From assembly GCA_963920705.1 (NCBI GenBank), contig OY987233.1, positions 124,001-188,000 of the forward strand: DNA of 64,000 nucleotides. The letters are read 5' to 3'. Position 1 is the stretch's first letter. Each line of letters begins with the position of its first letter. Under the pieces are notes generated by a model. It searched no databases and was not told the DNA's origin. It worked only from the letters and a program-made list of their open reading frames with translations. Both the position numbers and the translations under genes were made by a program. Source of the DNA: Odiellus spinosus. Lineage: Eukaryota; Arthropoda; Arachnida; Opiliones; Phalangiidae. Below are positions 3,591-62,197 of the stretch, one piece after another.

Positions 3591-3754
3591 GATCTACACT
3601 TGGCAAATTTGTGGATCTACACTTGGCAAATTTGTGGATCTACACTTGGGAAATTTGTTTATCTACACTTGGGAAATTTGTGGATCTACACTTGGGAAAT
3701 TTGTGGATCTACACTTGGGAAATTTGTGGATCTACACTTGGGAAATTTGTGGAT

Positions 3755-4055
3755 CTACTCTTGGGAAATTTGTGGATCTACACTAGGGAAATTTGTGGAT
3801 CTACACTTGGGAAATTTGTGGATCTACACTTGGGAAATTTGTGGATCTATACTTGGAAAATTTGTGGAACTATTCTTGGAAAATTTGGGGATATATGCTT
3901 GGATATTTGTTGATCTATACTTGGGAAATATGTGTATCTATACTTGGGATTTTTGTGGATCTACACTTGGCAAATTTGTGGATCTACACTTTGCAAATTT
4001 GTGGATCTACACTTGGGAAATTTGTGGATCTACACTTGCAAATTTGTAGATCTAC
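3755..4055 (+). repeat. ~300-bp block shared with the right domain
   Basis: In order it contains TCTACTCTTGGG, ACACTAGGGAAA, GGGGATATATGC, AAATATGTGTATC, TTGGGATTTTTGTGG, CTTTGCAAATTTG and CTTGCAAATTTG. The same order recurs at about 41.08-41.40, 42.85-43.14 and 45.46-45.80 kb, but nowhere between 4.1 and 41 kb. Unlike those copies it lacks CTATACAAAGC before the GGGGATATATGC part. Preserved order of seven private variants makes chance convergence very unlikely. Confidence 0.85.
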
Positions 4056-4284
4056 ACTTGGCAAATTTGTGGATCTAAACTTTAAAAATTTGTGGATCTA
4101 CACTTGGGAAATTTGTGGATCTACACTTGGGAAATTTGTGGATCTTCACTTGGGAAAGTTGTGGATCTACACTTGGGAAATTTGTGGATCTACACTTGGG
4201 AAATTTGTGGATCTACACTTGGGAAATTTGTGGATCTACACTTGGGAAATTTGTGGATCTACACTTGGGAAATTTTTGGATCTA

Positions 4285-5055
4285 CACTAGGGAAATTTGT
4301 GGATCTACACTTGGGAAATTTGTGGATCTACACTTGGGAAATTTGTGGATCTATACAAAGGGAAATTTGTGGATCTATACAAAGCAAAATTTGGATATAT
4401 ACTTGGAAAATTTGTGGATCTATTCTTGGAAAATTTGGGGATATATGCTTGGAAATTTGTTGATCTACACTTGGCAAATTTGTGGATCTAAACTTTAAAA
4501 ATTTGTGGATCTACACTTGGGAAATTTGTGGATTTACACTTGGCAAATTTGTGGATCTATACTTGGTAAATTTGTGGATCTACACTTGTCAAATTTGTGG
4601 ATCTACACTTGCTAATTTGTGGATCTACACTTGGCAAATTTGTGGATCTACACTTGGGAAATTTGTGGATTTACACTTGGGAAATTTGTGGATCTACACT
4701 TGTGAAATTTGTGGATCTACACTTGGGAAATTTGTGGATCTACACTTGGGAAATTTGTGGATCTACACTTGGGAAATTTGTGGATCTACACTTGGGAAAG
4801 TTGTGGATCTACACTTGGAAAATTTGTGGATATACACTTGGGAAATTTTTGGATCTACACTTGGGAAATTTGTGGGTCTACACTTGGGAGATTTGTGGAT
4901 CTACACTTGGGAAATTTTTGGATCTACACTAGGGAAATTTGTGGATCTACACTTGGGAAATTTGTGGATCTACACTTGGGAAATTTGTGGATCTATACAA
5001 AGGGAAATTTGTGGATCTATACAAAGCAAAATTTGGATCTATTCTTGGAAAATTT
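4285..5055 (+). repeat. Duplicated CTATACAAAG cassettes (offset 642 bp)
   Basis: A series ACACTAGGGAAA, two ordinary monomers, CTATACAAAGGG, CTATACAAAGC, then TATTCTTGGAAAA occurs at about 4285-4440 and again from about 4926. The offset is 642 bp, 28 monomers minus 2 bp. Doubled CTATACAAAG monomers occur otherwise only near 61.87 kb. The second copy leads straight into the first 1,126-bp HOR. Confidence 0.8.
4381..4690 (+). repeat. Cassette copy L-b (partner 1-310)
   Basis: This is the second copy of the ~310-bp block at the left window edge, carrying the same ordered series of private monomers, including CTTGCTAATTTG at the same relative place. Two CTATACAAAG monomers directly precede it, showing what probably lies just outside the window before base 1. 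Confidence 0.85.
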
Positions 5056-6181
5056 GGGGATATATGCTTGGAAATTTGTTGATCTACACTTGGCAAATTT
5101 GTGGATCTAAACTTGGGAAATTTGTGGATCTACACTTGGTAAATTTGTGGATCTACACTTTGCAAATTTTTGGATCTACACTTGGGAAATTTGTGGATCT
5201 ACACTCGCAAATTTGTGGATCTACACTTGGCAAATTTGTGGATCTAAACTTTAAAAATTTGTGGATCTACACTTGTTAAATTTGTGGATTTACATTTGGC
5301 AAATTTGTGGATCTACACTTGGTAAATTTGTGGATCTACACTTGACAAATTTGTGGATCTACACTTGGTAAATTTGTGGATCTACACTTGGCAAATTTGT
5401 GGATCTACAGTTGGCAAATTTGTGGATCTACACTTGGGAAATTTGTGGATTTACACTTGGCAAATTTGTGGATCTACACTTGGTAAATTTGTGGATCTAC
5501 ACTTGGGAAATTTGTGGATCTACACTTGGGAAATTTGTTGATCTACACTTGGCCAATTTGTGGATCTAAACTTTAAAAATTTGTGGATTTATACTTGGGA
5601 AATTTGTGGATTTATACTTGGGAAATTTGTGGATTTATACTTGGGAAATTTGTGGATTTATACTTGGGAAATTTGTATATTTATACTTAGGAAATTTGTG
5701 GATTTATACTTGGGAAATTTGTGGATCTACACTTGGGAAATTTGTGAATTTATACTTGGGAAATTTGTGGATTTATACTTGGGAAATTTGTGGATTTATA
5801 CTTGGGAAATTTTTGAATTTGTACTTGGGAAATTTGTGAATTTATACTTGGGAAATTTGTGGATTTATACTTGGGAAATTTGTAGATTTATACTTGGGAA
5901 ATTTGTGGATTTATACTTAGGAAATTTGTGGATTTATACTTAGGAAATTTGAGGATTTACACTTGACAAATTTGTGGATCTACTCTTTGCAAATTTGTGG
6001 ATCTACACTTGGCAAATTTGTGGATCTACACTTGGCAAATTTGTGGATCTACACTTGGCAAATTTGTGGATCTACACTTGGCAAATTTTGTGGATTTACA
6101 CTTGGGAAATTTGTGGATTTACACTTGGCAAATTTGTATATCTACACTTGTGAAATTTGTGGATCTATTCTTGGAAAATTT
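5056..6181 (+). repeat. 1,126-bp HOR, copy 1
   Basis: Counted from GGGGATATATGC to the next one. It holds about 49 monomers (49 x 23 minus 1). Landmarks in order are CTTTGCAAATTTTTGG, the short CACTCGCAAATTTG, CTAAACTTTAAAAA, CTTGTTAAATTTG, CTACAGTTGG, CTTGGCCAATTTG, a second CTAAACTTTAAAAA, a GATTTATAC cluster with GAATTTGTACTTGG, CTACTCTTTGC and AAATTTTGTGG. I see no difference from copy 2. Confidence 0.92.
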
Positions 6182-7307
6182 GGGGATATATGCTTGGAAA
6201 TTTGTTGATCTACACTTGGCAAATTTGTGGATCTAAACTTGGGAAATTTGTGGATCTACACTTGGTAAATTTGTGGATCTACACTTTGCAAATTTTTGGA
6301 TCTACACTTGGGAAATTTGTGGATCTACACTCGCAAATTTGTGGATCTACACTTGGCAAATTTGTGGATCTAAACTTTAAAAATTTGTGGATCTACACTT
6401 GTTAAATTTGTGGATTTACATTTGGCAAATTTGTGGATCTACACTTGGTAAATTTGTGGATCTACACTTGACAAATTTGTGGATCTACACTTGGTAAATT
6501 TGTGGATCTACACTTGGCAAATTTGTGGATCTACAGTTGGCAAATTTGTGGATCTACACTTGGGAAATTTGTGGATTTACACTTGGCAAATTTGTGGATC
6601 TACACTTGGTAAATTTGTGGATCTACACTTGGGAAATTTGTGGATCTACACTTGGGAAATTTGTTGATCTACACTTGGCCAATTTGTGGATCTAAACTTT
6701 AAAAATTTGTGGATTTATACTTGGGAAATTTGTGGATTTATACTTGGGAAATTTGTGGATTTATACTTGGGAAATTTGTGGATTTATACTTGGGAAATTT
6801 GTATATTTATACTTAGGAAATTTGTGGATTTATACTTGGGAAATTTGTGGATCTACACTTGGGAAATTTGTGAATTTATACTTGGGAAATTTGTGGATTT
6901 ATACTTGGGAAATTTGTGGATTTATACTTGGGAAATTTTTGAATTTGTACTTGGGAAATTTGTGAATTTATACTTGGGAAATTTGTGGATTTATACTTGG
7001 GAAATTTGTAGATTTATACTTGGGAAATTTGTGGATTTATACTTAGGAAATTTGTGGATTTATACTTAGGAAATTTGAGGATTTACACTTGACAAATTTG
7101 TGGATCTACTCTTTGCAAATTTGTGGATCTACACTTGGCAAATTTGTGGATCTACACTTGGCAAATTTGTGGATCTACACTTGGCAAATTTGTGGATCTA
7201 CACTTGGCAAATTTTGTGGATTTACACTTGGGAAATTTGTGGATTTACACTTGGCAAATTTGTATATCTACACTTGTGAAATTTGTGGATCTATTCTTGG
7301 AAAATTT
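6182..7307 (+). repeat. 1,126-bp HOR, copy 2
   Basis: Every landmark of copy 1 sits exactly 1,126 bp further on, including the CACTCGC monomer and both CTAAACTTTAAAAA monomers. I found no base difference from copy 1 by eye, so the duplication is very recent, homogenised, or an assembly duplication. Confidence 0.92.
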
Positions 7308-8433
7308 GGGGATATATGCTTGGAAATTTGTTGATCTACACTTGGCAAATTTGTGGATCTAAACTTGGGAAATTTGTGGATCTACACTTGGTAAATTTGT
7401 GGATCTACACTTTGCAAATTTTTGGATCTACACTTGGGAAATTTGTGGATCTACACTCGCAAATTTGTGGATCTACACTTGGCAAATTTGTGGATCTAAA
7501 CTTTAAAAATTTGTGGATCTACACTTGTTAAATTTGTGGATTTACATTTGGCAAATTTGTGGATCTACACTTGGTAAATTTGTGGATCTACACTTGACAA
7601 ATTTGTGGATCTACACTTGGTAAATTTGTGGATCTACACTTGGCAAATTTGTGGATCTACAGTTGGCAAATTTGTGGATCTACACTTGGGAAATTTGTGG
7701 ATTTACACTTGGCAAATTTGTGGATCTACACTTGGTAAATTTGTGGATCTACACTTGGGAAATTTGTGGATCTACACTTGGGAAATTTGTTGATCTACAC
7801 TTGGCCAATTTGTGGATCTAAACTTTAAAAATTTGTGGATTTATACTTGGGAAATTTGTGGATTTATACTTGGGAAATTTGTGGATTTATACTTGGGAAA
7901 TTTGTGGATTTATACTTGGGAAATTTGTATATTTATACTTAGGAAATTTTTGGATTTATACTTGGGAAATTTGTGGATCTACACTTGGGAAATTTGTGAA
8001 TTTATACTTGGGAAATTTGTGGATTTATACTTGGGAAATTTGTGGATTTATACTTGGGAAATTTTTGAATTTGTACTTGGGAAATTTGTGAATTTATACT
8101 TGGGAAATTTGTGGATTTATACTTGGGAAATTTGTAGATTTATACTTGGGAAATTTGTGGATTTATACTTAGGAAATTTGTGGATTTATACTTAGGAAAT
8201 TTGTGGATTTACACTTGACAAATTTGTGGATCTACTCTTTGCAAATTTGTGGATCTACACTTGGCAAATTTGTGGATCTACACTTGGCAAATTTGTGGAT
8301 CTACACTTGGCAAATTTGTGGATCTACACTTGGCAAATTTTGTGGATTTACACTTGGGAAATTTGTGGATTTACACTTGGCAAATTTGTATATCTACACT
8401 TGTGAAATTTGTGGATCTATTCTTGGAAAATTT
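7308..8433 (+). repeat. 1,126-bp HOR, copy 3
   Basis: Same landmark order at a further 1,126 bp. It differs from copies 1 and 2 at a few sites, such as AAATTTTTGGATTT in place of AAATTTGTGGATTT near 7950 and GTGG in place of GAGG near 8203. Confidence 0.9.
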
Positions 8434-9906
8434 GGGGATATATGCTTGGAAATTTGTTGATCTACACTTGGCAAATTTGTGGATCTAAACTTGGGAAATT
8501 TGTGGATCTACACTTGGTAAATTTGTGGATCTACACTTTGCAAATTTTTGGATCTACACTTGGGAAATTTGTGGATCTACACTTGGCAAATTTGTGGATC
8601 TAAACTTTAAAAATTTGTGGATCTACACTTGTTAAATTTGTGGATTTACATTTGGCAAATTTGTGGATCTACACTTGGTAAATTTGTGGATCTACACTTG
8701 ACAAATTTGTGGATCTACACTTGGTAAATTTGTGGATCTACACTTGGCAAATTTGTGGATCTACAGTTGGCAAATTTGTGGATCTACACTTGGGAAATTT
8801 GTGGATTTACACTTGGCAAATTTGTGGATCTACACTTGGTAAATTTGTGGATCTACACTTGGGAAATTTGTGGATCTACACTTGGCCAATTTGTGGATCT
8901 AAACTTTAAAAATTTGTGGATTTATACTTGGGAAATTTGTGGATTTATACTTGGGAAATTTGTGGATTTGTACTTGGGAAATTTGTGGATTTATACTTGG
9001 GAAATTTGTATATTTATACTTAGGAAATTTGTGGATTTATACTTGGGAAATTTGTGGATCTACACTTGGGAAATTTGTGAATTTATACTTAGGAAATTTG
9101 TGGATTTATACTTGGGAAATTTGTGGATTTATACTTGGGAAATTTTTGAATTTGTACTTGGGAAATTTGTGAATTTATACTTGGGAAATTTGTGGATTTA
9201 TACTTGGGAAATTTGTAGATTTATACTTGGGAAATTTGTGGATTTATACTTAGGAAATTTGTGGATTTATACTTAGGAAATTTGTGGATTTACACTTGAC
9301 AAATTTGTGGATCTACTCTTAGCAAATTTGTGGATCTACACTTGGCAAATTTGTGGATCTACACTTGGCAAATTTGTGGATCTACACTTGGCAAATTTGT
9401 GGATCTACACTTGGCAAATTTTGTGGATTTACACTTGGGAAATTTGTGGATTTACACTTGGCAAATTTGTATATCTACACTTGTGAAATTTGTGGATCTA
9501 CACTTGGGAAATTTGTGGATCTACACTTGGGAAATTTGTGGATCTACACTTGGGAAATTTGTGAATTTATACTTGGGAAATTTGTGGATTTATACTTGGG
9601 AAATTTGTGGATTTATACTTGGGAAATTTGTGGATTTATACTTAGGAAATTTGTGGATTTATACTTAGGAAATTTGTGGATTTACACTTGACAAATTTGT
9701 GGATCTACTCTTTGCAAATTTGTGGATCTACACTTGGCAAATTTGTGGATCTACACTTGGCAAATTTGTGGATCTACACTTGGCAAATTTGTGGATCTAC
9801 ACTTGGCAAATTTTGTGGATTTACACTTGGGAAATTTGTGGATTTACACTTGGCAAATTTGTATATCTACACTTGTGAAATTTGTGGATCTATTCTTGGA
9901 AAATTT
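8434..9906 (+). repeat. 1,473-bp HOR, copy 1 (expanded form of the 1,126-bp HOR)
   Basis: Starts as a fourth copy of the 1,126-bp unit, but lacks the CACTCGC monomer and one monomer before CTTGGCCAATTTG (offset falls from 1,126 to 1,104 to 1,081 bp). It gains a 392-bp internal duplication near 9330-9720. The arithmetic closes: 1,081 + 392 = 1,473. 1,473 is 64 monomers plus 1 bp. Confidence 0.9.
9330..9721 (+). repeat. 392-bp internal duplication inside the 1,473-bp HOR
   Basis: The run of CTTGGCAAATTTG monomers, AAATTTTGTGG, GTATATCTACACTTGTG and a GATTTATAC run occurs at about 9330 and again from 9722, offset 392 bp (17 monomers plus 1 bp). In this copy the GGGGATATATGC cassette is replaced by plain GATCTACAC monomers; in the one from 9722 the cassette is kept. 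The same pair repeats 1,473 bp later. Confidence 0.8.
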
Positions 9907-11379
9907 GGGGATATATGCTTGGAAATTTGTTGATCTACACTTGGCAAATTTGTGGATCTAAACTTGGGAAATTTGTGGATCTACACTTGGTAAATTTGTG
10001 GATCTACACTTTGCAAATTTTTGGATCTACACTTGGGAAATTTGTGGATCTACACTTGGCAAATTTGTGGATCTAAACTTTAAAAATTTGTGGATCTACA
10101 CTTGTTAAATTTGTGGATTTACATTTGGCAAATTTGTGGATCTACACTTGGTAAATTTGTGGATCTACACTTGACAAATTTGTGGATCTACACTTGGTAA
10201 ATTTGTGGATCTACACTTGGCAAATTTGTGGATCTACAGTTGGCAAATTTGTGGATCTACACTTGGGAAATTTGTGGATTTACACTTGGCAAATTTGTGG
10301 ATCTACACTTGGTAAATTTGTGGATCTACACTTGGGAAATTTGTGGATCTACACTTGGCCAATTTGTGGATCTAAACTTTAAAAATTTGTGGATTTATAC
10401 TTGGGAAATTTGTGGATTTATACTTGGGAAATTTGTGGATTTGTACTTGGGAAATTTGTGGATTTATACTTGGGAAATTTGTATATTTATACTTAGGAAA
10501 TTTGTGGATTTATACTTGGGAAATTTGTGGATCTACACTTGGGAAATTTGTGAATTTATACTTAGGAAATTTGTGGATTTATACTTGGGAAATTTGTGGA
10601 TTTATACTTGGGAAATTTTTGAATTTGTACTTGGGAAATTTGTGAATTTATACTTGGGAAATTTGTGGATTTATACTTGGGAAATTTGTAGATTTATACT
10701 TGGGAAATTTGTGGATTTATACTTAGGAAATTTGTGGATTTATACTTAGGAAATTTGTGGATTTACACTTGACAAATTTGTGGATCTACTCTTAGCAAAT
10801 TTGTGGATCTACACTTGGCAAATTTGTGGATCTACACTTGGCAAATTTGTGGATCTACACTTGGCAAATTTGTGGATCTACACTTGGCAAATTTTGTGGA
10901 TTTACACTTGGGAAATTTGTGGATTTACACTTGGCAAATTTGTATATCTACACTTGTGAAATTTGTGGATCTACACTTGGGAAATTTGTGGATCTACACT
11001 TGGGAAATTTGTGGATCTACACTTGGGAAATTTGTGAATTTATACTTGGGAAATTTGTGGATTTATACTTGGGAAATTTGTGGATTTATACTTGGGAAAT
11101 TTGTGGATTTATACTTAGGAAATTTGTGGATTTATACTTAGGAAATTTGTGGATTTACACTTGACAAATTTGTGGATCTACTCTTTGCAAATTTGTGGAT
11201 CTACACTTGGCAAATTTGTGGATCTACACTTGGCAAATTTGTGGATCTACACTTGGCAAATTTGTGGATCTACACTTGGCAAATTTTGTGGATTTACACT
11301 TGGGAAATTTGTGGATTTACACTTGGCAAATTTGTATATATACACTTCTGAAATTTGTGGATCTACACTTGGGAAATTT
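9907..11379 (+). repeat. 1,473-bp HOR, copy 2
   Basis: Landmarks follow copy 1 at exactly 1,473 bp, including the CTCTTAGC monomer (about 9314 and 10787) that separates the two halves of the internal duplication. I saw no clear difference over most of its length. The next copy, from about 11149, lacks the GGGGATATATGC cassette and soon decays, so this is the last copy of the cassette before 41.2 kb. Confidence 0.88.
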
Positions 11380-11979
11380 GTGGATCTACACTTGGGAAAT
11401 TTGTGGATCTACACTTGGGAAATTTGTGAATTTATACTTGGGAAATTTGTGGATTAATACTTGGGAAATTTGTGGATTTATACTGGGGAAATTTGTGGAT
11501 TTATACTTGGGAAATTTGTGGATTTATACTTAGGAAATTTGTGGATTTACACTTGGCAAATTTGTGGATCTACACTTGGTAAATTTGTGGATCTACACTT
11601 GGCAAATTTGTGGATCTACACTCGGCAAATTTGTGGATCTACACTTGGCAAATTTATGGATCTACACTTGGCAAATTTTGTGGATCTACACTTCGGAAAT
11701 TTGTGGATCTACACTTGGGAAATTTGTGGATCTACATTTGGGAAATTTGTGGATCTACACTTGATAAATTTGTGGATCTACACTTGGCAAATTTGTGGAT
11801 CTACACTTGGCAAATTTATGGATCTACACTTGGCAAATTTTGTAGATCTACACTTCGGAAATTTGTGGATCTATACTTGGGAAATTTGTGGATCTACACT
11901 TGGGAAATTTGTTTATCTACACTTGGGAAATTTGTGGATCTACACTTGTGAAATTTGTGGAGCTACACTTGGGAAATTT

Positions 11980-12575
11980 GTGGATCTACACTTGGGAAAT
12001 TTGTGGATCTACACTTGGGAAATTTGTGGATCTACACTTGGGAAATTTGTGGATCTACACTTGGGAAATTTGTGGATCTACACTTGGGAAATTTGTGAAT
12101 TTATGCTTGGGAAATTTGTGGATTTATACTTGGGAAATTTGTGGATTTATACTTGGGAAATTTGTGGATCTATACTGGGGAAATTTGTGGATTTATACTT
12201 GGGAAATTTGTGGATTTACACTTGGCAAATTTGTGGATCTACACTTGGTAAATTTGTGGATCTACACTTGGCAAATTTGTGGATCTACACTTGGCAAATT
12301 TGTGGATCTACACTTGGCAAATTTTGTGGATCTACACTTCGGAAATTTTTGGATCTACACTTGTGAAATTTGTGGATCTACACTTGGGAAATTTGTGGAT
12401 CTACACTTGGGAAATTTGTGGATCTACACTTGACAAATTTGTGGATCTACACTTGGCAAATTTGTGGATCTACACTTGGCAAATTTATGGATCTACACTT
12501 GGCAAATTTTGTGGATCTACACTTCGGAAATTTGTGGATCTACACTTGGGAAATTTGTGGATCTACACTTGGGAA
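11980..12575 (+). repeat. ~595-bp direct repeat, copy 1 (offset 992 bp)
   Basis: Variant order GAATTTATGC, TACTGGGG, AAATTTTGTGG, CTTCGG, CTTGAC, AAATTTATGG, AAATTTTGTGG, CTTCGG matches the block beginning near 12972. The offset of 992 bp is fixed by GAATTTATGC at 12097 and 13089. Confidence 0.78.
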
Positions 12576-12971
12576 ATTTGTGAATTTATGCTTGGGAAAT
12601 TTGTGGATTTATATTTGGGAAATTTGTGGATTTATACTTGGGAAATTTGTTTATTTATACTTGGGAAATTTGTGGATTTATACTTAGGAAATTTGTGGAT
12701 TTTCACTTGGCAAATTTGTAGATTTATACTTGGGAAATTTGTGGATTTATTATTGGGAAATTTGTGGATTTATACTTAGAAAATTTGTGGATTTACACTT
12801 GGCAAATTTGTGGATCTACACTTGGTAAATTTGTGGATCTACACTTGGCAAATTTGTGGATCCACACTTGGCAAATTTGTGGATCTACACTTGGCAAATT
12901 TGTGGATCTACACTTGGCAAATTTTGTGGATCTACACTTGGGAAAATTGTGGATTTACACTTGGCAAATTT

Positions 12972-13567
12972 GTGGATCTACACTTGTGAAATTTGTGGAT
13001 CTACACTTGGGAAATTTGTGGATCTACACTTGGGAAATTTGTGGATCTACACTTGGGAAATTTGTGGATCTACACTTGGGAAATTTGTGAATTTATGCTT
13101 GGGAAATTTGTGGATTTATACTTGGGAAATTTGTGGATTTATACTTGGGAAATTTGTGGATCTATACTGGGGAAATTTGTGGATTTATACTTGGGAAATT
13201 TGTGGATTTACACTTGGCAAATTTGTGGATCTACACTTGGTAAATTTGTGGATCTACACTTGGCAAATTTGTGGATCTACACTTGGCAAATTTGTGGATC
13301 TACACTTGGCAAATTTTGTGGATCTACACTTCGGAAATTTGTGGATCTACACTTGGGAAATTTGTGGATCCACACTTGGGAAATTTGTGGATCTACACTT
13401 GGGAAATTTGTGGATCTACACTTGACAAATTTGTGGATCTACACTTGGCAAATTTGTGGATCTACACTTGGCAAATTTATGGATCTACACTTGGCAAATT
13501 TTGTGGATCTACACTTCGGAAATTTGTGGATCTACACTTGGGAAATTTGTGGATCTACACTTGGGAT
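12972..13567 (+). repeat. ~595-bp direct repeat, copy 2 (offset 992 bp)
   Basis: Second copy of the block at 11980-12575. It differs by private changes such as GGATCCACAC near 13368. It ends where GTCGATATACAC monomers first appear, at the start of the next domain. Confidence 0.78.
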
Positions 13568-15183
13568 ATTTGTTTATCTACACTTGGGAAATTTGTGGAT
13601 CTACACTTGTGAAATTTGTCGATATACACTTGTGAAAATTGTGGAGCTATACTTGGGAAATTTGTGGATCTACACTTGGGAAATTTGTGGATCTACACTT
13701 GGGAAATTTGTGGATCTACACTTGGGAAATTTGTGGATCTACACTTGGGAAATTTGTGGATCTACACTTGGAAAATTTGTGGAAATACACTTGGGAAATA
13801 TGTGGATCTACACTTGGGAAATTTGTGGATCTACACTTGGAAAATTTGTGGATCTACATTTGGGAAATTTGTTGATCTACACTTGGGAAATTTGTGGTTC
13901 TACACTTGGGAAATTTGTGTATCTACACTTGGGAAATTTGTGGATTTATACTTGGGAAATTTGTGGATTTATACTTCGGAAATTTGTGGATTTATACTTG
14001 GAAAATTTGTGGATTTATAATTGGGAATTTGTGGATTTATACTTGGGAAATTTGTGGGTCTAGACTTGGGAAATTTGTGGGTATAGACTTGGGACATTTG
14101 TGGATCTAGACTTGGGACATTTGTGGATCTACACTTGTGAAATTTGTGGATCTACACTTGGTAAATTTGTGGATCTACTCTTGGCAAATTTGTGGATCTA
14201 CACTTGGCAAATTTGTGGATCTACACTTGGCAAATTTGTGGATCTACACTTGGCAAATTTGTGGATCTACACTTGGCAAATTTTGTGGATCTACACTTGG
14301 GAAATTTGTGGATTTACACTTGGCAAATTTGTGGATCTACACTTGTGAAATTTGTGGATCTACACTTGGGAAATTTGTGGATCTACACTTGGCAAATTTG
14401 TGGATCTACACTTGGGAAATTTGTGGATCTACACTTGGGAAATTTGTTTATCTACACTTGGGAAATTTGTGGATCTACACTTGTGAAATTTGTCGATATA
14501 CACTTGTGAAATTTGTGGAGCTATACTTGGGAAATTTGTGGATCTACACTTGGGAAATTTGTGGATCTACACTTGGGAAATTTGTGGATCTACACTTGGA
14601 AAATTTGTGGATATACACTTGGGAAATATGTGGATCTACACTTGGGAAATTTGTGGATCTACACTTGGGAAATTTGTTGATCTACACTTGGGAAATTTGT
14701 GTATCTACACTTGGGAAATTTGTGGATTTATACTTGGGAAATTTGTGGATTTATACTTCGGAAATTTGTGGATTTATACTTGGAAAATGTGTGGATTTAT
14801 AATTGGGAAATTTGTGGATTTATACTTGGAAAATTTGTGGGTCTAGACTTGGGAAATTTGTGGGTATAGACTTGGGACATTTGTGGATCTAGACTTGGGA
14901 CATTTGTGGATCTACACTTGTGAAATTTGTGGATCTACACTTGGTAAATTTGTGGATCTACACTTGGGAAATTTGTGGATCTACTCTTGGCAAATTTGTG
15001 GATCTACACTTGGCAAATTTGTGGATCTACACTTGGCAAATTTGTGGATCTACACTTGGCAAATTTTGTGGATCTACACTTGGGAAATTTGTGGATTTAC
15101 ACTTGGCAAATTTGTGGATCTACACTTGTGAAATTTGTGGATCTACACTTGGTAAATTTGTGGATCTACACTTGGCAAATTTG

Positions 15184-44030: not shown

Positions 44031-44060
44031 TTGTGGATTTATACTTGGGAAATTTGTGGA

Positions 44061-45459: not shown

Positions 45460-45687
45460 CTACTCTTGGGAAATTTGTGGATCTACACTAGGGAAATTTG
45501 TGGATCTACACTTGGGAAATTTGTGGATCTACACTTGGGAAATTTGTGGATCTATACAAAGCAAAATTTTTATTTATACTTGGAAAATTTGTGGATCTAT
45601 TCTTGGAAAATTTGGGGATATATGCTTGGAAATTTGCTGATCTATACTTGGGAAATATGTGTATCTATACTTGGGATTTTTGTGGAT
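45460..45687 (+). repeat. 228-bp tandem duplication, copy 2
   Basis: Immediate second copy with GGGGATATATGC at 45614. It shares the private TTTGCTGATC change with copy 1, so the pair arose after that change. No difference was seen between the two. Confidence 0.88.
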
Positions 45688-49994: not shown

Positions 49995-51370
49995 ATTTGT
50001 GGATCTACACTTGGGAAATTTGTGGATTTATACTTGGAAATTTGTGGATTTATTCTTGGGAAATTTGTGGATTTATACTTGTGAAATTTGTGGATTTATA
50101 TTTTGGAAATTTGTGGATTTATACTTGGGAAATTTGTGGACTTATACTTGGGAAATTTGTGGATTTATACTTAGGAAATTTGTGGATTTACACTTGGCAA
50201 ATTTGTGGATCTACACTTGGCAAATTTGTGGATCTACACTTGGCAAATTTGTGGATCTACACTTGCAAATTTGTGGATTTACAATGTGCAAATTTGTGGA
50301 TCTACACTTTGCAAATTTGTGGATCTACACTTGGGAAATTTGTGGATCTACACTTGGGAAATTTGTGGATCTACACTTGGGAAATTTGTGGATCTACACT
50401 TGGGAAATTTGTAGATCTACACTTGGGAAATTTGTGGATCTACACTTGGGAAATTTGTGGATCTACACTTTGCAAATTTGTGGATATATACTTGGGAAAT
50501 TTGTGGATCTACACTTGGCAAATTTGTGGATCTACACTTTGTTAATTTGTGGATCTACACTCGGAAAATTTGTGGATCTACACTTGGGAAATTTGTGGAT
50601 CTACACTTGGGAAATTTGTGGATCTACACTTGGGAAAATTGTGGATCTACTCTTGGGAAATTTGTGGATCTACACTAGTAAAATTTGTGGATCTACACTT
50701 GGGAAATTTGTGGATATACACTTGGGAAATTTGTGGATCTACACTTGGGAAATTTGTGGATCTATAAAAAGCAAAATTTGGATTTATACTTGGAAAATTT
50801 GTGGATCTATTCTTGGAAAATTTGGGGATATATGCTTGGAAATTTGTTGATCTATACTTGGGAAATATGTGTATCTATACTTGGGATTTTTGTGGATCTA
50901 CACTTGGCAAATTTGTGGATCTACGCTTTGCAAATTTGTGGATCTACACTTGGGAAATTTGTGGATCTACACTTGCAAATTTGTGGATTTACACTGTGCA
51001 AATTTGTGGATCTACACTTTGCAAATTTGTGGATCTACACTTGGGAAATTTGTGGATCTACACTTGGTAAATTTGTGGATCTACACTTGGGAAATTTGTG
51101 GATCTACACTTGGGAAATTTGTGGATCTATACAAAGCAAAATTTGGATTTATACTTGGAAAATTTGTGGATCTATTCTTGGAAAATTTGGGGATATATGC
51201 TTGGAAATTTGTTGATCTATACTTGGGAAATATGTGGATCTACACGTTGCAAATTTGTGGATCTACACTTGGGAAATTTGTGGATCTACACTTGCAAATT
51301 TGTGGATTTACACTGTGCAAATTTGTGGATCTACACTTTGCAAATTTGTGGATCTACACTTGGGAAATTT
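49995..51370 (+). repeat. 1,532-bp HOR, copy 1
   Basis: Carries the short CTTGGAAATTTG, GACTTATAC, ACAATGTGC (~50283), CACTCGGAAAATTTG (~50559), TATAAAAAGC (~50763), two GGGGATATATGC cassettes (50824, 51189) and CACGTTGC (~51243). Every one of these private variants recurs at 1,532 bp, changing to 1,509 bp after one monomer is lost. Confidence 0.9.
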
Positions 51371-51526
51371 GTGGATCTACACTTGCAAATTTGTGGATTT
51401 ACACTTGGCAAATTTGTGGATCTACACTTTGCAAATTTGTGGATCTACACTTGGGAAATTTGTGGATCTACACTTGGCAAATTTGTGGGTCTACACTTTG
51501 TAAATTTGTGGATCTACACTTGGGAA

Positions 51527-52880
51527 ATTTGTGGATCTACACTTGGGAAATTTGTGGATTTATACTTGGAAATTTGTGGATTTATTCTTGGGAAATTTGT
51601 GGATTTATACTTGTGAAATTTGTGGATTTATATTTTGGAAATTTGTGGATTTATACTTGGGAAATTTGTGGACTTATACTTGGGAAATTTGTGGATTTAT
51701 ACTTAGGAAATTTGTGGATTTACACTTGGCAAATTTGTGGATCTACACTTGGCAAATTTGTGGATCTACACTTGGCAAATTTGTGGATCTACACTTGCAA
51801 ATTTGTGGATTTACAATGTGCAAATTTGTGGATCTACACTTTGCAAATTTGTGGATCTACACTTGGGAAATTTGTGGATCTACACTTGGGAAATTTGTGG
51901 ATCTACACTTGGGAAATTTGTGGATCTACACTTGGGAAATTTGTAGATCTACACTTGGGAAATTTGTGGATCTACACTTGGGAAATTTGTGGATCTACAC
52001 TTTGCAAATTTGTGGATATATACTTGGGAAATTTGTGGATCTACACTTGGCAAATTTGTGGATCTACACTTTGTTAATTTGTGGATCTACACTCGGAAAA
52101 TTTGTGGATCTACACTTGGGAAATTTGTGGATCTACACTTGGGAAATTTGTGGATCTACACTTGGGAAAATTGTGGATCTACTCTTGGGAAATTTGTGGA
52201 TCTACACTAGTAAAATTTGTGGATCTACACTTGGGAAATTTGTGGATATACACTTGGGAAATTTGTGGATCTACACTTGGGAAATTTGTGGATCTATAAA
52301 AAGCAAAATTTGGATTTATACTTGGAAAATTTGTGGATCTATTCTTGGAAAATTTGGGGATATATGCTTGGAAATTTGTTGATCTATACTTGGGAAATAT
52401 GTGTATCTATACTTGGGATTTTTGTGGATCTACACTTGGCAAATTTGTGGATCTACGCTTTGCAAATTTGTGGATCTACACTTGGGAAATTTGTGGATCT
52501 ACACTTGCAAATTTGTGGATTTACACTGTGCAAATTTGTGGATCTACACTTTGCAAATTTGTGGATCTACACTTGGGAAATTTGTGGATCTACACTTGGT
52601 AAATTTGTGGATCTACACTTGGGAAATTTGTGGATCTATACAAAGCAAAATTTGGATTTATACTTGGAAAATTTGTGGATCTATTCTTGGAAAATTTGGG
52701 GATATATGCTTGGAAATTTGTTGATCTATACTTGGGAAATATGTGGATCTACACGTTGCAAATTTGTGGATCTACACTTGGGAAATTTGTGGATCTACAC
52801 TTGCAAATTTGTGGATTTACACTGTGCAAATTTGTGGATCTACACTTTGCAAATTTGTGGATCTACACTTGGGAAATTTG
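51527..52880 (+). repeat. 1,532-bp HOR, copy 2
   Basis: All private variants of copy 1 are present in order, including TATAAAAAGC (~52295) and CACGTTGC (~52752). One monomer is missing near 52.62 kb. About 155 bp of other monomers separate the copies, so this is a near-tandem duplication. Confidence 0.9.
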
Positions 52881-55344
52881 TGGATCTACACTTGGGAAAT
52901 TTGTGGATCTACACTTGGGAAATTTGTGGATCTACACTTGGGAAATTTGTAGATCTACACTTGGGAAATTTGTGGATCTACACTTGGGAAATTTGTGGAT
53001 TTACACTTTGCAAATTTGTGGATATACACTTGGGAAATTTGTGGATCTACACTTGGCAAATTTGTGGATCTACACTTTGTTAATTTGTGGATCTACACTT
53101 GGAAAATTTGTGGATCTACACTTGGGAAATTTGTGGATCTACACTTGGGAAATTTGTGGATCTACACTAGTAAAATTTGTGGATCTACACTTGGGAAATT
53201 TGTGGATCTACACTTGGGAAATTTGTGGATTTATACTTGGGAAATTTGTGGATTTATACTTGTGAAATTTGTGGATTTATAATTGGGAAATTTGTTTATT
53301 TATATTTGGGAAATTTGTGGATCTACACTTGGGAAATTTGTGGATCTACACTTGGGAAATTTGTGGATCTACACTTGGAAAATTTGTGGATCTACACTTG
53401 GGAAATTTGTGGATTTATTCTTGGGAAATTTGTGGATTTATACTTATGAAATTTGTGGATTTATATTTTGGAAATTTGTGGATTTATACTTGGGAAATTT
53501 GTGGACTTATACTTGGGAAATTTGTGGATTTATACTTAGGAAATTTGTGGATTTACACTTGGCAAATTTGTGGATCTACACTTGGCAAATTTGTGGATCT
53601 ACACTTGGCAAATTTGTGGATCTACACTTGGCAAATTTGTGGATCTACACTTGGGAAATTTGTGGATCTACTCTTGCAAATTTGTGGATCTACACTTGGC
53701 AAATTTGTGGATCTACACTTGGGAAATTTGTGGATCTACACTTGGCAAATTTGTGGGTCTACACTTTGTAAATTTGTGGATCTACACTTGGGAAATTTGT
53801 GGATCTACACTTGGGAAATTTTTGGATCTACACTTGGGAAATTTGTGGATCTACACTTGGAAAATTTGTGGATCTACACTTGGGAAATTTGTGGATCTAC
53901 ACTTGGGAAATTTGTGGATCTACACTTGGGAAAATTGTGGATCTACTCTTGGGAAATTTGTGGATCTACACTAGTAAAATTTGTGGATCTACACTTGAGA
54001 AATTTGTGGATCTACACTTGGGAAATTTGTTTATTTATACTTGGGAAATTTGGGGATTTACACTTGGCAAATTTGTGGATCTACACTTGGCAAATTTGTG
54101 GATCTACACTTGGCAAATTTGTGGATCTACACTTGGGAAATTTGTGGATCTACACTTGGGAAATTTGTGGATCTACTCTTGCAAATTTGTGGATCTACAC
54201 TTGGCAAATTTGTGGATCTACACTTGGGAAATTTGTGGATCTACACTTGGCAAATTTGTGGGTCTAGACTTTGTAAATTTGTGGATCTGCACTTGGAAAA
54301 TTTGTGGATCTACACTTGGGAAATTTGTGGATCTACAATTGGGAAATTTGTGGATCTACACTTGGGAAAATTGTGGATCTACTCTTGGGAAATTTGTGGA
54401 TCTACACTAGTAAAATTTGAGGATCTACACTTGGGAAATTTGTGGATCTACACTTGGCAAATTTGTGGATCTACACTTGGCAAATTTGTGGATCTACACT
54501 TGGGAAATTTGTGGATCTACACTTGGCAAATTTGTGGATCTACACTTTGCAAATTTGTGGATATACACTTGGGAAATTTGTGGATCTACACTTGGCAAAT
54601 TTGTGGGTCTACACTTTGTAAATTTGTGGATCTACACTTGGGAAATTTGTGGATCTACACTTGGGAAATTTTTGGATCTACACTTGGGAAATTTGTGGAT
54701 CTACTCTTGGGAAATTTGTGGATCTACACTAGGGAAATTTGTGGATTTATACTTGGGAAATTTGGGGATTTATACTTGGGAAATTTGTGGATTTATACTT
54801 GGGAAATTTGTGGATTTATAATTGGGAAATTTGTGGATTTATATTTGGGAAATTTGTGGATCTACACTTGGGAAATTTGTGGATCTGCACTTGGGAAATT
54901 TGTGGATCTACACTTGGGAAATTTGTGGATCTACACTTGGGAAATTTTGGATCTACACTTGGGAAAATTGTGGATCTACACTTGGGAAAATTGTGGATCT
55001 ACTCTTGGGAAATTTGTGGATCTACACTAGTAAAATTTGTGGATCTACACTTGGGAAATTTGTTATTCTACACTAGGGAAATTTGTTTATTTATACTTGG
55101 GAAATTTGGGGATTTACACTTGGCAAATTTGTGGATCTACACTTGGCAAATTTGTGGATCTACACTTGGGAAATTTGTGGATCTACACTTGGGAAATTTG
55201 TGGATCTACTCTTGCAAATTTGTGGATCTACACTTGGCAAATTTGTGGATCTACACTTTGCAAATTTGTGGATATACACTTGGGAAATTTGTGGATCTAC
55301 ACTTGGCAAATTTGTGGGTCTACACTTTGTAAATTTTTGGATCT

Positions 55345-55980
55345 ACACTTGGAAAATTTGTGGATCTACACTTGGGAAATTTGTGGATCTACACTTGGGA
55401 AATTTGTGGATCTACACTTGGGAAAATTGTGGATCTACTCTTGGGAAATTTGTGGATCTACACTAGTAAAATTTGTGGATCTACACTTGGCAAATTTGTG
55501 GATCTACACTTTGCAAATTTGTGGATATACACTTGGGAAATTTGTGGATCTACACTTGGCAAATTTGTGGGTCTACACTTTGTAAATTTGTGGATCTACT
55601 CTTGCAAATTTGTGGATCTACACTTGGCAAATTTGTGGATCTACACTTTGCAAATTTGTGGATATACACTTGGGAAATTTGTGGATCTACACTTGGCAAA
55701 TTTGTGGGTCTACACTTTGTAAATTTGTGGATCTACACTTGGAAAATTTGTGGATCTACACTTGGGAAATTTGTGGATCTACACTTGGGAAATTTGTGGA
55801 TCTACACTTGGGAAAATTGTGGATCTACTCTTGGGAAATTTGTGGATCTACACTAGTAAAATTTGTGGATCTACACTTGGCAAATTTGTGGATCTACACT
55901 TTGCAAATTTGTGGATGTACACTTGGGAAATTTGTGGATCTACACTTGGCAAATTTGTGGGTCTACACTTTGTAAATTTG
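55345..55980 (+). repeat. 390-bp and 137-bp nested tandem duplications
   Basis: The series GGGAAAATTGTGG, CTACTCTTGGG, ACTAGTAAAA, CTTTGCAAATTTG, GGATATACAC, GGGTCTACACTTTG occurs from about 55345 and from 55735 (offset 390 bp, 17 monomers minus 1). Its last part is additionally doubled at 137 bp (six monomers minus 1; about 55473 and 55610). Confidence 0.84.
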
Positions 55981-57529
55981 TGGATCTACACTTGGGAAAT
56001 TTGTGGATCTACACTAGGGAAATTTGTGGATTTATACTTGGGAAATTTGGGGATTTATACTTGGGAAATTTGTGGATTTATACTTGGGAAATTTGTGGAT
56101 TTATAATTGGGAAATTTGTGGATTTATATTTGGGAAATTTGTGGATCTACACTTGGGAAATTTGTGGATCTACACTTGGGAAATTTGTGGATCTACACTT
56201 GGGAAATTTGTGGATCTACACTTGGGAAATTTGTGGATCTACACTTGGGAAATTTGTGGATCTACACTTGGGAAATTTGTGGATCTACTCTTGGGAAATT
56301 TGTGGATCTACACTAGGGAAATTTGTGGATCTACACTTGGGAAATTTGTGGATCTACACTTGGAAAATTTGTGGATCTACACTTGGGAAATTTGTGGATC
56401 TACACTTGCGAAATTTGTGGATCTACACTTGGGAAATTTGTGGATTTATACTTGGGAAATTTGTGGATTTATACTTGGGAAATTTGTGGATTTATTCTTG
56501 GGAAATTTGTGGATTTATACTTAGGAAATTTGTGGATTTATATTTGGGAAATTTGTGGATTTATACTTTGGAAATTTGTGGATCTACACTTGGGAAATTT
56601 GTGGTTCTACTCTTGCAAATTTGTGGATCTACACTTTGCAAATTTGTGGATATACACTTGGGAAATTTGTGGATCTACACTTGGCAAATTTGTGGGTCTA
56701 CACTTGGGAAATTTGTGGATCTATACTTGGGAAATTTTTGGATCTACACTTGGGAAATTTGGGGATCTACACTTGGGAAATTTGTGGATTTATACTTGGC
56801 AAATTTTGGGATTTATACTTGGGAAATTTGTGGATTTATACTTGGGAAATTTGTGGATTTATAATTGGGAAATTTGTGGATTTATAATTGGGATATTTGT
56901 GGATTAATATTTGGGAAATTTGTGGATCTACACTTGGCAAATTTGTGGATCTACACTTGGGAAATTTTTGGATCTACTCTTGCCAATTTGTGGATCTACA
57001 CTTGGCAAATTTGTGGATCTACACTTTGCAAATTTGTGGATATACACTTGGGAAATTTGTGGATCTACACTTGGCAAATTTGTGGGTCTACACTTTGCAA
57101 ATTTGTGGATCTAAACTTGGGAAATTTGTGGATCTACACTTGGGAAATTTTTGGATCTACACTTGGGAAATTTGTGGATCTACACTTGGGAAATTTGTGG
57201 ATTTATACTTGGGAAATTTGGGGATTTATACTTGGGAAATTTATGGATTTATAATTGGGAAATTTGTGGATTTATACTTGGGAAATTTGTGGATTTATAC
57301 TTGGAAAATTTGTGGATCTACACTTGGGAAATTTGTAGATCTACACTTGGGAAATTTGTGGATCTACACTTGGGAAATTTGTGGATTTATAATTGGGAAA
57401 TTTGTGGATTTATATTTGGGAAATTTGTGGATCTACACTTGGGAAATTTGTGGATCTACACTTGGGAAATTTGTGGATCTACATTTGGGAAATTTGTGGA
57501 TCTACACTTGGGAAATTTGTGGATCTACA

Positions 57530-58309
57530 CTTGCGAAATTTGTGGATCTACACTTGGGAAATTTGTGGATCTACACTTGGGAAATTTGTGGATTTATACT
57601 TGGGAAATTTGTGGATTTATACTTGGGAAATTTGTGGATTTATTCTTGGGAAATTTATGGATTTATACTTAGGAAATTTGTGGATTTATATTTGGGAAAT
57701 TTGTGGATTTATACTTGGGAAATTTGTGGATCTACACTTGGGAAATTTGTGGTTCTACTCTTGCAAATTTGTGGATCTACACTTTGCAGATTTGTGGATA
57801 TACACTTGGGAAATTTGTGGATCTACACTTGGCAAATTTGTGGGTCTACACTTTGCAAATTTGTGGATCTACACTTGGGAAATTTGTGGATCTACACTTG
57901 GGAAATTTTTGGATCTACACTTGCGAAATTTGTGGATCTACACTTGGGAAATTTGTGGATCTACACTTGGGAAATTTGTGGATTTATACTTGGGAAATTT
58001 GTGGATTTATACTTGGGAAATTTGTGGATTTATTCTTGGGAAATTTATGGATTTATACTTAGGAAATTTGGCGATTTATATTTGGGAAATTTGTGGATTT
58101 ATCCTTGGGAAATTTGTGGATCTACACTTGGGAAATTTGTGGTTCTACTCTTGCAAATTTGTGGATCTACACTTTGCAGATTTGTGGATATACACTTGGG
58201 AAATTTGTGGATCTACACTTGGCAAATTTGTGGGTCTACACTTTGCAAATTTGTGGATCTACACTTGGGAAATTTGTGGATCTACACTTGGGAAATTTGT
58301 GGATCTACA
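57530..58309 (+). repeat. 390-bp tandem duplication at 57.5 kb
   Basis: CTTGCGAAATTTG, a GATTTATAC run with GATTTATTC, AAATTTATGG, GTGGTTCTAC, the 21-bp CTTGCAAATTTG, CTTTGCAGATTTG and GGGTCTACAC occur from 57530 and again at 57920. CTTTGCAGATTTG (~57781 and ~58171) is private to the pair. The second copy has new changes, AAATTTGGCGATTT and GATTTATCC. The size equals that of the 55-kb pair but the content differs. Confidence 0.86.
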
Positions 58310-59259
58310 CTTGGGAAATTTGTGGATTTATACTTAGGAAATTTGTGGATTGACACTTGGCAAATTTATGGATCTACACTTGGTAAATTTGTGGATCTAC
58401 ACTTGGCAAATTTGTGGATCTACCTTGGCAAATTTGTGGATCTACACTTGGCAAATTTGTGGATCTACACTTGGGAAATTTGTGGATCTACACTTGGCAA
58501 ATTTGTTTATCTACACTTTGCAAATTTGTGGATCTACACTTGGGAAATTTGTGGATCTACACTTGGCAAATTTGTGGGTCTACACTTTGCAAATTTGTGG
58601 ATCTACAATTGGGGAATTTGTGGATCTACACTTGGGAAATTTGTGGTTCTACACTTGGGAAATTTGTGGGTCTACACTTTGCAAATTTGTGGATCTACAC
58701 TTGGGAAATTTTTGGATCTACACTTGGGAAATTTGTGGATCTACACTTGGGAAATTTGTGGATCTACACTTGGGAAATTTGTGGATCTACACTTGGGAAA
58801 TTTGTGGATCTATACAAAGCAAAATTTGGATTTATACTTGGAAAATTTGTGGATCTATTCTTGGAAAATTTGGGGATATATGCTTGGAAATTTGTTGATC
58901 TATACTTGGGAAATATGTGTATCTATACTTGGGATTTTTGTGGATCTACACTTGGCAAATTTGTGGATCTACACTTTGCAAATTTGTGGATCTACACTTG
59001 GCAAATTTGTGGATCTACACTTTGCAAATTTGTGGATCTACACTTGGGAAATTTGTGGATCTACACTTTGCAAATTTGTGGATCTACACTTGGGAAATTT
59101 GTGGATCTACACTTGGGAAATTGGTGGATCTACACTTGGGAAATTTGTGGATCTACGCTTGGAAATTTGTTGATCTATACTTGGGAAATATGTGTATCTA
59201 TACTTGGGATTTTTGTGGATCTACACTTGGCAAATTTGTGGATCTACACTTTGCAAATT

Positions 59260-61171
59260 TGTGGATCTACACTTGGGAAATTTGTGGATCTACACTTGCA
59301 AATTTGTGGATTTACACTGTGCAAATTTGTGGATCTACACTTGGAAAATTTGTGGATCTACACTTGGGAAATTTGTGGATCTACACTTGGGAAATTTGTG
59401 GATCTACACTTGGGAAAATTGTGGATCTACTCTTGGGAAATTTGTGGATCTACACTAGTAAAATTTGTGGATCTACACTTGGGAAATTTGTGGATCTACA
59501 CTAGTAAAATTTGTGGATCTACACTTGGGAAATTTGTGGATCTACACTTGGGAAATTTGTGGATATATACTTGTGAAATTTGTGGATTTATAATTGGCAA
59601 ATTTGTGGATTTATATTTGGGAAATTTGTGGATCTACACTTGGGAAATTTGTGGATCTACACTTGGGAAATTTGTGGATCTACACTTGGAAAATTTGTGG
59701 ATCTACACTTGGGAAATTTGTGGATTTATACTTGGAAATTTGTGGATTTATTCTTGGGAAATTTGTGGATTTATACTTATGAAATTTGTGGATTTATATT
59801 TTGGAAATTTGTGGATTTATACTTGGGAAATTTGTGGACTTATACTTGGGAAATTTGTGGATTTATACTTAGGAAATTTGTGGATTTACACTTGGCAAAT
59901 TTGTGGATCTACACTTGGCAAATTTGTGGATCTACACTTGGCAAATTTGTGGATCTACACTTGGCAAATTTGTGGATCTACTCTTGCAAATTTGTGGATC
60001 TACACTTGGCAAATTTGTGGATCTACACTTGGGAAATTTGTGGATCTACACTTGGCAAATTTGTGGGTCTACACTTTGTAAATTTGTGGATCTACACTTG
60101 GGAAATTTGTGGATCTACACTTAGGAAATTTTTGGATCTACACTTGGGAAATTTGTGGATCTACACTTGGAAAATTTGTGGATCTACACTTGGGAAATTT
60201 GTGGATCTACACTTGGGAAATTTGTGGATCTACACTTGGGAAAATTGTGGATCTACTCTTGGGAAATTTGTGGATCTACACTAGTAAAATTTGTGGATCT
60301 ACACTAGTAAAATTTGTGGATCTACACTTGGGAAATTTGTGGATCTACACTTGGAAAATTTGTTATTCTACACTTGGGAAATTTGTTTATTTATACTTGG
60401 GAAATTTGGGGATTTACACTTGGCAAATTTGTGGATCTACACTTGGCAAATTTGTGGATCTACACTTGGGAAATTTGTGGATCTACACTTGGGAAATTTG
60501 TGGATCTACTCTTGCAAATTTGTGGATCTACACTTGGCAAATTTGTGGATCTACACTTTGCAAATTTGTGGATATACACTTGGGAAATTTGTGGATCTAC
60601 ACTTGGCAAATTTGTGGGTCTACACTTTGTAAATTTGTGGATCTACACTTGGGAAATTTGTGGATCTACACTTGGGAAATTTGTGGATCTACACTTGGGA
60701 AAATTGTGGATCTACTCTTGGGAAATTTGTGGATCTACACTAGTAAAATTTGTGGATCTACACTTGGGAAATTTGTGGATCTACACTTGGGAAATTTGTT
60801 ATTCTACACTTGGGAAATTTGTTTATTTATACTTGGGAAATTTGGGGATTTACACTTGGCAAATTTGTGGATCTACACTTGGCAAATTTGTGGATCTACA
60901 CCTGGGAAATTTGTGGATCTACACTTGGGAAATTTGTGGATCTACTCTTGCAAATTTGTGGATCTACACTTGGCAAATTTGTGGATCTACACTTTGCAAA
61001 TTTGTGGATATACACTTGGGAAATTTGTGGATCTACACTTGGCAAATTTGTGGGTCTACACTTTGTAAATTTGTGGATCTACACTTGGAAAATTTGTGGA
61101 TCTACACTTGGGAAATTTGTGGATCTACACTTGGGAAATTTGTGGATCTAAACTTGGGAAAATTGTGGATC
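59260..61171 (+). repeat. ~1.9-kb group, copy 1, containing a 436-bp tandem pair
   Basis: From CTTGCAAATTTG and CACTGTGC through the ACTAGTAAAA pair, GGATATATACTTGTG, TATAATTGGC, TATTTTGGAAA, GACTTATAC and GGGTCTACACTTTG. It ends with a 436-bp tandem duplication (about 60300-60735 and 60736-61171; 19 monomers minus 1 bp). The group recurs at +2,938 bp, falling to +2,869 bp. Confidence 0.85.
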
Positions 61172-61589
61172 TACTCTTGGGAAATTTGTGGATCTACACA
61201 AGTAAAATTTGTGGATCTACACTTGGGAAATTTGTGGATCTACACTTGGCAAATTTGTGGATCTACACTTGGGAAATTTGTGGATCTACACTTGGCAAAT
61301 TTGTGGATCTACACTTCGCAAATTTGTGGATATACACTTGGGAAATTTGTGGATCTACACTTGGCAAATTTGTGGGTCTACACTTTGTAAATTTGTGGAT
61401 CTACACTTGGGAAATTTGTGGATCTACACTTGGGAAATTTTTGGATCTACACTTGGGAAATTTGTGGATCTACTCTTGGGAAATTTGTGGATCTACACTA
61501 GGGAAATTTGTGGATTTATACTTGGGAAATTTGGGGATTTATACTTGGGAAATTTGTGGATTTATACTTGGGAAATTTGTGGATTTATA

Positions 61590-62197
61590 ATTGGGAAATT
61601 TGTGGATCTACACTTGGGAAATTTGTAGATCTACACTTGGGAAATTTGTGGATCTACACTTGGGAAATTTTTGGATCTACACCTGGGAAATTTGTGGATC
61701 TAAACTTGGGAAATTTTTGGATCTACACTTGGGAAATTTTAGGATCTACACTAGGGAAATTTGTGGATCTACACTTGGGAAATATGTGGATCTACTCTTG
61801 GGAAATTTGTGGATCTACACTTGGGAAATTTGTGGATCTACACTTGGGAAATTTGTGGATCTATACAAAGGGAAATTTGTGGATCTATACAAAGGGAAAT
61901 TTGGATCTATACTTGGAAAATTTGTGGATTTATTCTTATAAAATTTGTGGGTATATGCTTGGAAATTTGTTGATCTATACTTGTTAAATATGTGTATCTA
62001 CACTTGGGAAATTTGTGGATCTACACTTGCGAAATTTGTGGATCTACACTTGGGAAATTTGCGGATTTATACTTGGGAAATTTGTGTATTTATACTTGGG
62101 AAATTTGTGGATTTATGCTTAGGAAATTTGTGGATTTATACTTAGGAAATTTGTGGATTTATATTTGGGAGATTTTTGGATTTATACTTGGGAAATT
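61590..62197 (+). repeat. Spacer with doubled CTATACAAAGGG cassette
   Basis: Lies between the two 1.9-kb groups. It contains AAATTTTAGGATC, ACACTAGGG, AAATATGTGG, two adjacent CTATACAAAGGG monomers (~61862 and 61885), GGGTATATGCTTGG (a one-base variant of the GGGGATATATGC cassette, ~61950), CTTGCG, AAATTTGCGG and GATTTATGC. Its closest match in order is the cassette group at 4.3-5.05 kb. Confidence 0.8.

Follow-up and report, generated by a model that had tools for sequence, protein, structure and literature searches.

A patchwork of locally homogeneous domains in a 23-bp satellite array of Odiellus spinosus

The 64,000-nucleotide stretch of Odiellus spinosus DNA analyzed here (the window; C11:124001-188000, where C11 is a 23.9-Mb contig of a 443-Mb genome in 286 contigs) is very probably a slice of a giant 23-bp satellite array that turns over by repeated tandem duplication and deletion, most likely through unequal exchange. 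The array is divided into domains, similarity within it decays with distance, long exact repeats are frequent, a hybrid unit lies at one domain border, and two kinds of sequence recur along C11. A preliminary description of this DNA had noted ordered cassettes present in both outer parts of the window and absent from its middle, and had proposed a younger expansion inside an older array, segments moved over ~40 kb or an assembly joining separate arrays. The observation as a whole was confirmed, and its interpretation was partly supported. We found that the two-flank pattern is a local case of an alternation running along the array.

Tandem Repeats Finder described window positions 12-64000 as a 23-bp repeat of 2783.5 copies with 91% matches, and we counted 2785 monomers in 292 variants, so that the window is a satellite DNA array in the usual sense of head-to-tail tandem repeats that extend for tens of kb or more. 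The same repeat filled C11:1-258000 from base 2260 to 258 kb with no non-satellite run, amounting to 11,123 monomers, all in the same direction and comprising 659 variants; the commonest variant made up 24% (2,700/11,123), and 7,930 of the 11,123 monomers were 1-4 edits from the consensus. Reverse-strand consensus words reached at most 0.4% of any 4-kb bin in the first 258 kb. Further along the contig, satellite was present at each of 8 spaced positions probed from 300 kb up to 1.44 Mb, was more diverged at 1.48-1.59 Mb, with reversed orientation from 1.52 Mb on, and occupied part of the probe at 1.60 Mb; probes at 1.63 and 1.70 Mb were scored as no satellite, and none was seen at 1.80, 2.0 and 2.5 Mb. 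Reverse satellite copies on C11 were found only in the diverged-edge probes (1.52-1.60 Mb). Samples of 300 bp diverged from the consensus by 0.047-0.11 in the window (8 samples); the range was 0.053-0.107 for the 300 kb to 1.44 Mb probes and rose to 0.113-0.153 for those at 1.48-1.59 Mb. The exact monomer had 0 matches in bacterial and archaeal genome contigs, three 21-letter monomer strings had no match in a literature text search, and a literature search of limited depth found no described 23-bp satellite matching the array. The kind of pattern is known; the satellite itself was not found described in the literature searched. In addition, TTAGG runs were seen near the end of contig C1, and a search for TTAGGG gave no match, which is suggestive of an arthropod. 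COX1 could be read as a single long open frame with the invertebrate mitochondrial code and equally well with table 9; the former was preferred, since it preserves a conserved lysine. The features used below are as follows (window positions unless C11 is given).

1..64000, + strand: 23-bp satellite, consensus TGGATCTACACTTGGGAAATTTG, head to tail, in a single orientation and with no break
C11 2-96 kb: domain A, from marker words
C11 96.5-134.5 kb, right end at window 1..10500, + strand: domain B, with GGGGATATATGC together with the TTTAAAAA monomer and one full cassette, from the marker table and tile matches
C11 134-162 kb, window 10500..38200, + strand: domain C, the middle of the preliminary description, with GGCAAATTTTG and CTAGACTTGGGACATTTG variants and no GGGGATATATGC
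C11 162-228 kb, left part at window 38200..64000, + strand: domain D, with nine cassette copies
C11 228-258 kb and beyond: domain E, from marker words
3755..4055, + strand: cassette of the preliminary description, the sole full copy in the left flank
41101..59041, + strand: nine cassette copies, each ~301 bp, starting at 41101, 42846, 44752, 45483, 47434, 49088, 50693, 52225 and 58741
5034..11339, + strand: left boundary zone, a hybrid higher-order repeat in which cassette-type and middle-type monomers are joined, with 1126-bp and then 1473-bp spacing
37512..38300, + strand: right boundary zone, in which middle-type markers stop and right-type markers start (monomer labels)

Exact copies of GGGGATATATGC numbered 20 in the window, with 8 up to position 9907, 12 from 41232 and none between. 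Allowing one mismatch gave 21 matches, the extra one at 41897, and still none in the middle; chance was rejected as the source of such counts, as 0.47 matches were expected from 100 dinucleotide shuffles. A two-flank gap this wide arose in 0 of 20,000 uniform placements, a weak null because satellite copies that arise by duplication do not vary independently of one another. The ~300-bp block at 3755-4055 does recur as described, with nine right-flank partners that match more than 240 of its 301 nt at 93.4-95.0% identity (matches spanning 240 nt or less were dropped before counting), and these include copies at 44.75 and 47.4 kb that had been missed. Identity fell to 91.4% for its next-best match in the left flank and to 90.8% for the best one in the middle, with 89-91% for the other satellite stretches within the top 40 matches.

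Several details of the earlier picture had to be corrected. Cassettes are absent from the middle as ordered blocks, but single words of the block do occur there, CTACTCTTGGG once (19015) and CTTTGC at 11 sites from 10.5 to 38.2 kb. They are also less evenly shared by the flanks than was thought, since only one of the eight left-flank GGGGATATATGC copies (3887) lies in a full cassette; the other seven lack the AAATATGTGTATC module and stand among different neighbours, four of them as part of the hybrid repeat. The 33-nt core AAATATGTGTATC...TTTTTGTGG had a single exact copy in the left flank (3926) and 11 in the right, with one more copy carrying 3 mismatches at 61986. The CTTGCAAATTTG monomer, for which the same distribution had been reported, is indeed missing between the flanks, but it is 22 bp rather than 21 bp long and lopsided, with 2 copies on the left and 27 on the right.

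Domain borders were set by eye from the marker table and differed by at most 0.7 kb between scripts. When the sequence was cut into 460-bp tiles, the best partner of a tile lay in its own domain for 199/205 tiles in A, 73/83 in B, 55/59 in C, 133/144 in D and 58/64 in E. Pieces of 6 kb had a mean similarity of 0.919-0.965 when both came from one domain and of 0.864-0.923 when they came from two; the least homogeneous block, B (0.919 within), fell below the between-domain value of A and C (0.923). The array is thus a patchwork (mosaic) of higher-order repeat blocks that are internally homogeneous and mutually different. The closest domain to C was A, at that same 0.923, and B was most similar to D (0.904), followed by A (0.897), E (0.896) and C (0.877); the value for C and D was 0.885. 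The two flanks group with each other and apart from the middle, which groups instead with domain A, the part beyond the left flank.

Both kinds of sequence recur far outside the window. A 92-mer from the cassette core occurred 65 times without mismatch in the genome, always on the + strand of C11, and we grouped these copies into patches near 165-219, 245-269, 429-443, 467-536, 672-686, 807-854, 908-912, 1029-1035 and 1412-1420 kb. The middle marker was found in 675 places; the first 100 of these, the ones listed, were all on the + strand of C11, and the patches they formed lay at 2.6-15, 138-161, 316-356 and 675-745 kb. At C11 672-690 kb the two kinds interdigitate, with cassettes at 672157, 673627, 684945 and 686139 and middle markers, among those listed, at 675536-682945 and then from 688072. 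Because cassettes occur in patches over 1.4 Mb, the two-flank appearance comes from the edges of the window, and the two flanks are no special pair.

We identified 1,626 pairs of exact repeats of at least 200 bp, the longest being 1,870 bp (words with more than 40 copies were left out, or more than 60 in the analysis of shared 300-mers). Of these pairs, 606 were less than 6 kb apart, including all 23 longest, and 701 were more than 15 kb apart. A bulge in the distances was seen at 26-34 kb, with its longest pairs mainly in domain A; exact copies tens of kb apart exist within domains A and D, and exact 300-mers were shared at distances up to 48-64 kb. These distances indicate copying over one to five kb as well as over tens of kb. 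Higher-order repeats are present as exact units longer than 1 kb, spaced for example by 1126, 1473, 1612 and 2869 bp, with irregular unit lengths. Similarity of 6-kb pieces fell from 0.956 between neighbours to 0.912 at 42-48 kb, then slowly to ~0.90 and to 0.88 at the largest distances.

Order shared between domains was short. The longest exact match between the left and right flanks was 173 bp (window 3661 and 56191), spanning CTACTCTTGGG and ACACTAGGG words, and none reached 200 bp. Weighted monomer alignment of B and D gave 13 identical of 17 aligned monomers and a score of 40.3 versus 20.5 for a reversed-order control; alignment of A and C gave 17 identical of 21 (44.8 versus 15.5), and that of C and D almost nothing above the control (14.5 versus 11.8). 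No left-right collinearity beyond ~0.4 kb was found by this method. The kinship of A with C and of B with D suggested a tandem duplication of a two-domain block (A-B to C-D), but shared order extends over at most 21 and 17 aligned monomers, respectively, and such a duplication is unproven.

The two borders of the middle differ in structure. At the left one, both kinds of monomer, as judged from monomer labels, lie within exact repeats that are 1790 bp long (1126-bp spacing) and 1730 bp long (1473-bp spacing). A 58-mer across this junction is present in four copies (C11 130136, 131262, 132388 and 133861, that is, window 6136, 7262, 8388 and 9861) and nowhere else in the genome; in the simplest reading, the recombinant arose once and then multiplied. 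On the right, middle markers fade by ~38.2 kb while the repeat continues unbroken, and a 79-mer at 37512-37590 in this zone occurs once in the genome.

The phylogeny of cassettes comprised 112 rows (90 different) in 8 groups, with cassettes truncated at the ends of analyzed stretches left out. Cassettes were locally clustered, with 17 label changes versus a shuffled mean of 54.1 and a minimum of 7, but did not form one clade per domain. The cassette at 3755-4055 belonged to a cluster with 99% SH-aLRT whose 11 rows came from D (6) and B (5), in a tree that was weakly resolved (6 of 87 inner branches starred and 57 under 80%). Either the shared block is old relative to the domains, or it was rarely passed over long distances.

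We also simulated duplication and deletion in 40 arrays with four windows each (160 windows), using blocks of 5-150 monomers and a single mutation at each event. In the real window, after variants with fewer than 8 or more than 60 copies had been dropped, 3 of 46 variants had a two-flank gap, two of the three being neighbouring monomers in one cassette. At least one was found in 52/160 simulated windows and at least three in 9/160, which places the observed value on the high side of the simulation, near its upper tail, yet inside its range. Variant numbers were similar in simulated and real data (median 693.5 versus 659 per array and 45 versus 46 per window), in a simulation that was not fitted, its commonest variant reaching 5-7% at the same mutation setting versus 24% in the real array. 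With blocks up to 1300 monomers the corresponding counts were 45/160 and 11/160, with fewer variants (199 per array).

These observations can be brought together in one process. Blocks from tens of monomers to tens of kb would have been repeatedly duplicated and deleted, by unequal sister-chromatid exchange or replication-based copying, and the outcome would be a patchwork of ~25-95 kb domains, more homogeneous within than between, with similarity decaying over ~40 kb. Exact repeats at both short and long distances are as expected from repeated tandem duplication and deletion of blocks, and unequal exchange is the probable copying process; concerted evolution by unequal crossing over is reportedly Smith's model. 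An ordered block of ~0.3-0.4 kb may already have been spread in the array and then been amplified in the domains of both flanks and not in the middle; we infer such ancestral spread in preference to occasional long-range conversion. On the left, the two kinds would have met and formed a recombinant unit that was itself amplified. The 701 exact pairs more than 15 kb apart count against purely local copying, and rare long-range transfer might be required to explain why both kinds recur over 1.4 Mb.

An alternative is that the middle is a recent amplification that grew or was inserted in a once-continuous array of the cassette type. Exact repeats of 1.0-1.9 kb demonstrate local expansion, similarity is higher between the two flanks than between the middle and either of them, the left-right exact match is longer than the left-middle (118 bp) and middle-right (135 bp) matches when boundary zones are left out, and the hybrid unit shows growth at the left border. 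However, the middle is not distinctly younger: similarity of its adjacent 6-kb pieces (0.968) is equalled in the far-left part (0.968) and nearly so in the far-right part (0.966), the values for the right flank (0.952) and the left flank (0.935) being lower. Where the flanks face each other, their ends are 0.910 alike, a little above the middle's end and the right flank's start (0.901) but like pieces ~45 kb apart and not like neighbours. In addition, the kinship of the middle with domain A and the presence of its marker in three other patches among the matches listed mean that it is no new kind. A homogeneous centre with symmetric older flanks was found neither in the window nor in the 258 kb, and we regard this alternative as unlikely.

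Movement or copying of a segment over ~40 kb between the flanks, by segmental duplication or gene conversion, is more doubtful still and, in our view, highly improbable. The ordered sharing of B and D above its control, the cassette set that mixes rows of both domains and the distant exact copies within A and D speak for it, but flank sharing stops at ~17 monomers and 173 exact bases, so that no 40-kb move is visible, and cassettes lie all along the array; a recent transfer of this kind was rejected by the exact-match and collinearity tests. Satellite arrays are prone to misassembly, and the assembly might have joined separate arrays at one or both borders. A join at the right border is compatible with the sequence, since the 79-mer tested there is single-copy. 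The left junction argues against one, as a single misjoin would not be expected to yield a genome-unique hybrid in four copies; moreover, the satellite and its orientation continue through both borders, and the two kinds of marker interdigitate elsewhere on C11. Overall, a misjoin appears improbable. Finally, the two kinds might be lasting, functionally different domains (e.g., kinetochore-bound versus flanking heterochromatin) that selection, in addition to random copying, maintains. We give this very little weight; if it were true, the cassette 92-mer, exact on C11 alone, would mark a chromosome-specific identity.

The mosaic array has known parallels. Passages on orangutan alpha-satellite describe distinct higher-order repeat blocks, each with its own expansion, as a patchwork quilt (PMC11062924, PMC12428378), and the array described here resembles them in being a mosaic of such blocks. 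The orangutan arrays, as described there, are centromeric, with a 171-bp monomer and blocks 80-90% alike, whereas the present array, known from its sequence, has a 23-bp monomer and domains 86-92% alike. In the layered alpha-satellite of human and chimpanzee, as outlined in PMC11062924, the most identical sequence is central and divergence increases outward; locally homogeneous layers in one array and diverged satellite at the right edge are similar here, but the 258 kb that we read showed no symmetry of this kind. The closest arthropod case using the word cassette is Tribolium madens, for which the relevant part of PMC13081366 reports two different satellites, TmSat1 and TmSat2, mixed in blocks that can reach tens of kb, with inverted (macro-dyad) subarrays. 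Two repeat kinds are likewise intermingled in blocks here, but they are variants of one monomer, both markers are on the + strand only (for the middle marker, among the matches listed), and long inverted subarrays of the Tribolium type were not found. On concerted evolution by unequal crossing over, a review traces higher-order repeats to blocks of monomers that were amplified jointly (PMC8122249); compared with what is set out there, we saw no difference that needs a new process.

When a two-flank pattern is seen in one satellite window, the rest of the array is needed before an insertion or misjoin is claimed. Our analysis quantified the scale over which copies stay alike (~40 kb), and provides a chromosome-scale example, from an invertebrate whose monomer is very short (23 bp), of mosaicism like that reported in orangutan alpha satellite.

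At the start of C11, the contig that carries the window, the 23-bp satellite array directly adjoins part of a virus-like mobile element. One of the element's open frames matches the adenovirus core protein X family; the match is short and scores below the family cut-off. Within the array, the spacing of long exact repeats in satellite domains A and D hints that the copied units are tens of kb long. The features of C11 and of three other contigs of the genome (C2, C4 and C17) are as follows.

C11:1-2250 (L009:1-2250, the contig-start stretch), minus strand: virus-like mobile element fragment, open frames of 138-159 aa
C11 8-96 kb: domain A, exact repeats >500 bp spaced about 25-42 kb
C11 160-228 kb: domain D, exact repeats >500 bp spaced about 15-28 kb
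C11:1480001-1600000, partly reversed: more strongly diverged form of the 23-bp satellite, right edge of the array
C2:27347104-27714528: loci of this satellite family (TATACTTGGG is their commoner form)
C4:669287: locus of this satellite family
C17:3125637-3136983: nuclear-genome pieces resembling mitochondrial COX1
C17:4376162-4393978: nuclear-genome pieces resembling mitochondrial COX1

Frames related to the C11-start element are abundant in the genome (636 candidates, 150 of which were scored, all matching), and several of them form inverted pairs about 10.7 kb apart. At both C17 loci, pairs of this element type adjoin the COX1-like pieces.

The exact consensus dimer, two consecutive consensus monomers, occurs 25,619 times in forward and 5,466 times in reverse orientation genome-wide, compared to 1,330 times across the initial 258 kb of C11; further large arrays of the satellite are therefore probable elsewhere in the genome.
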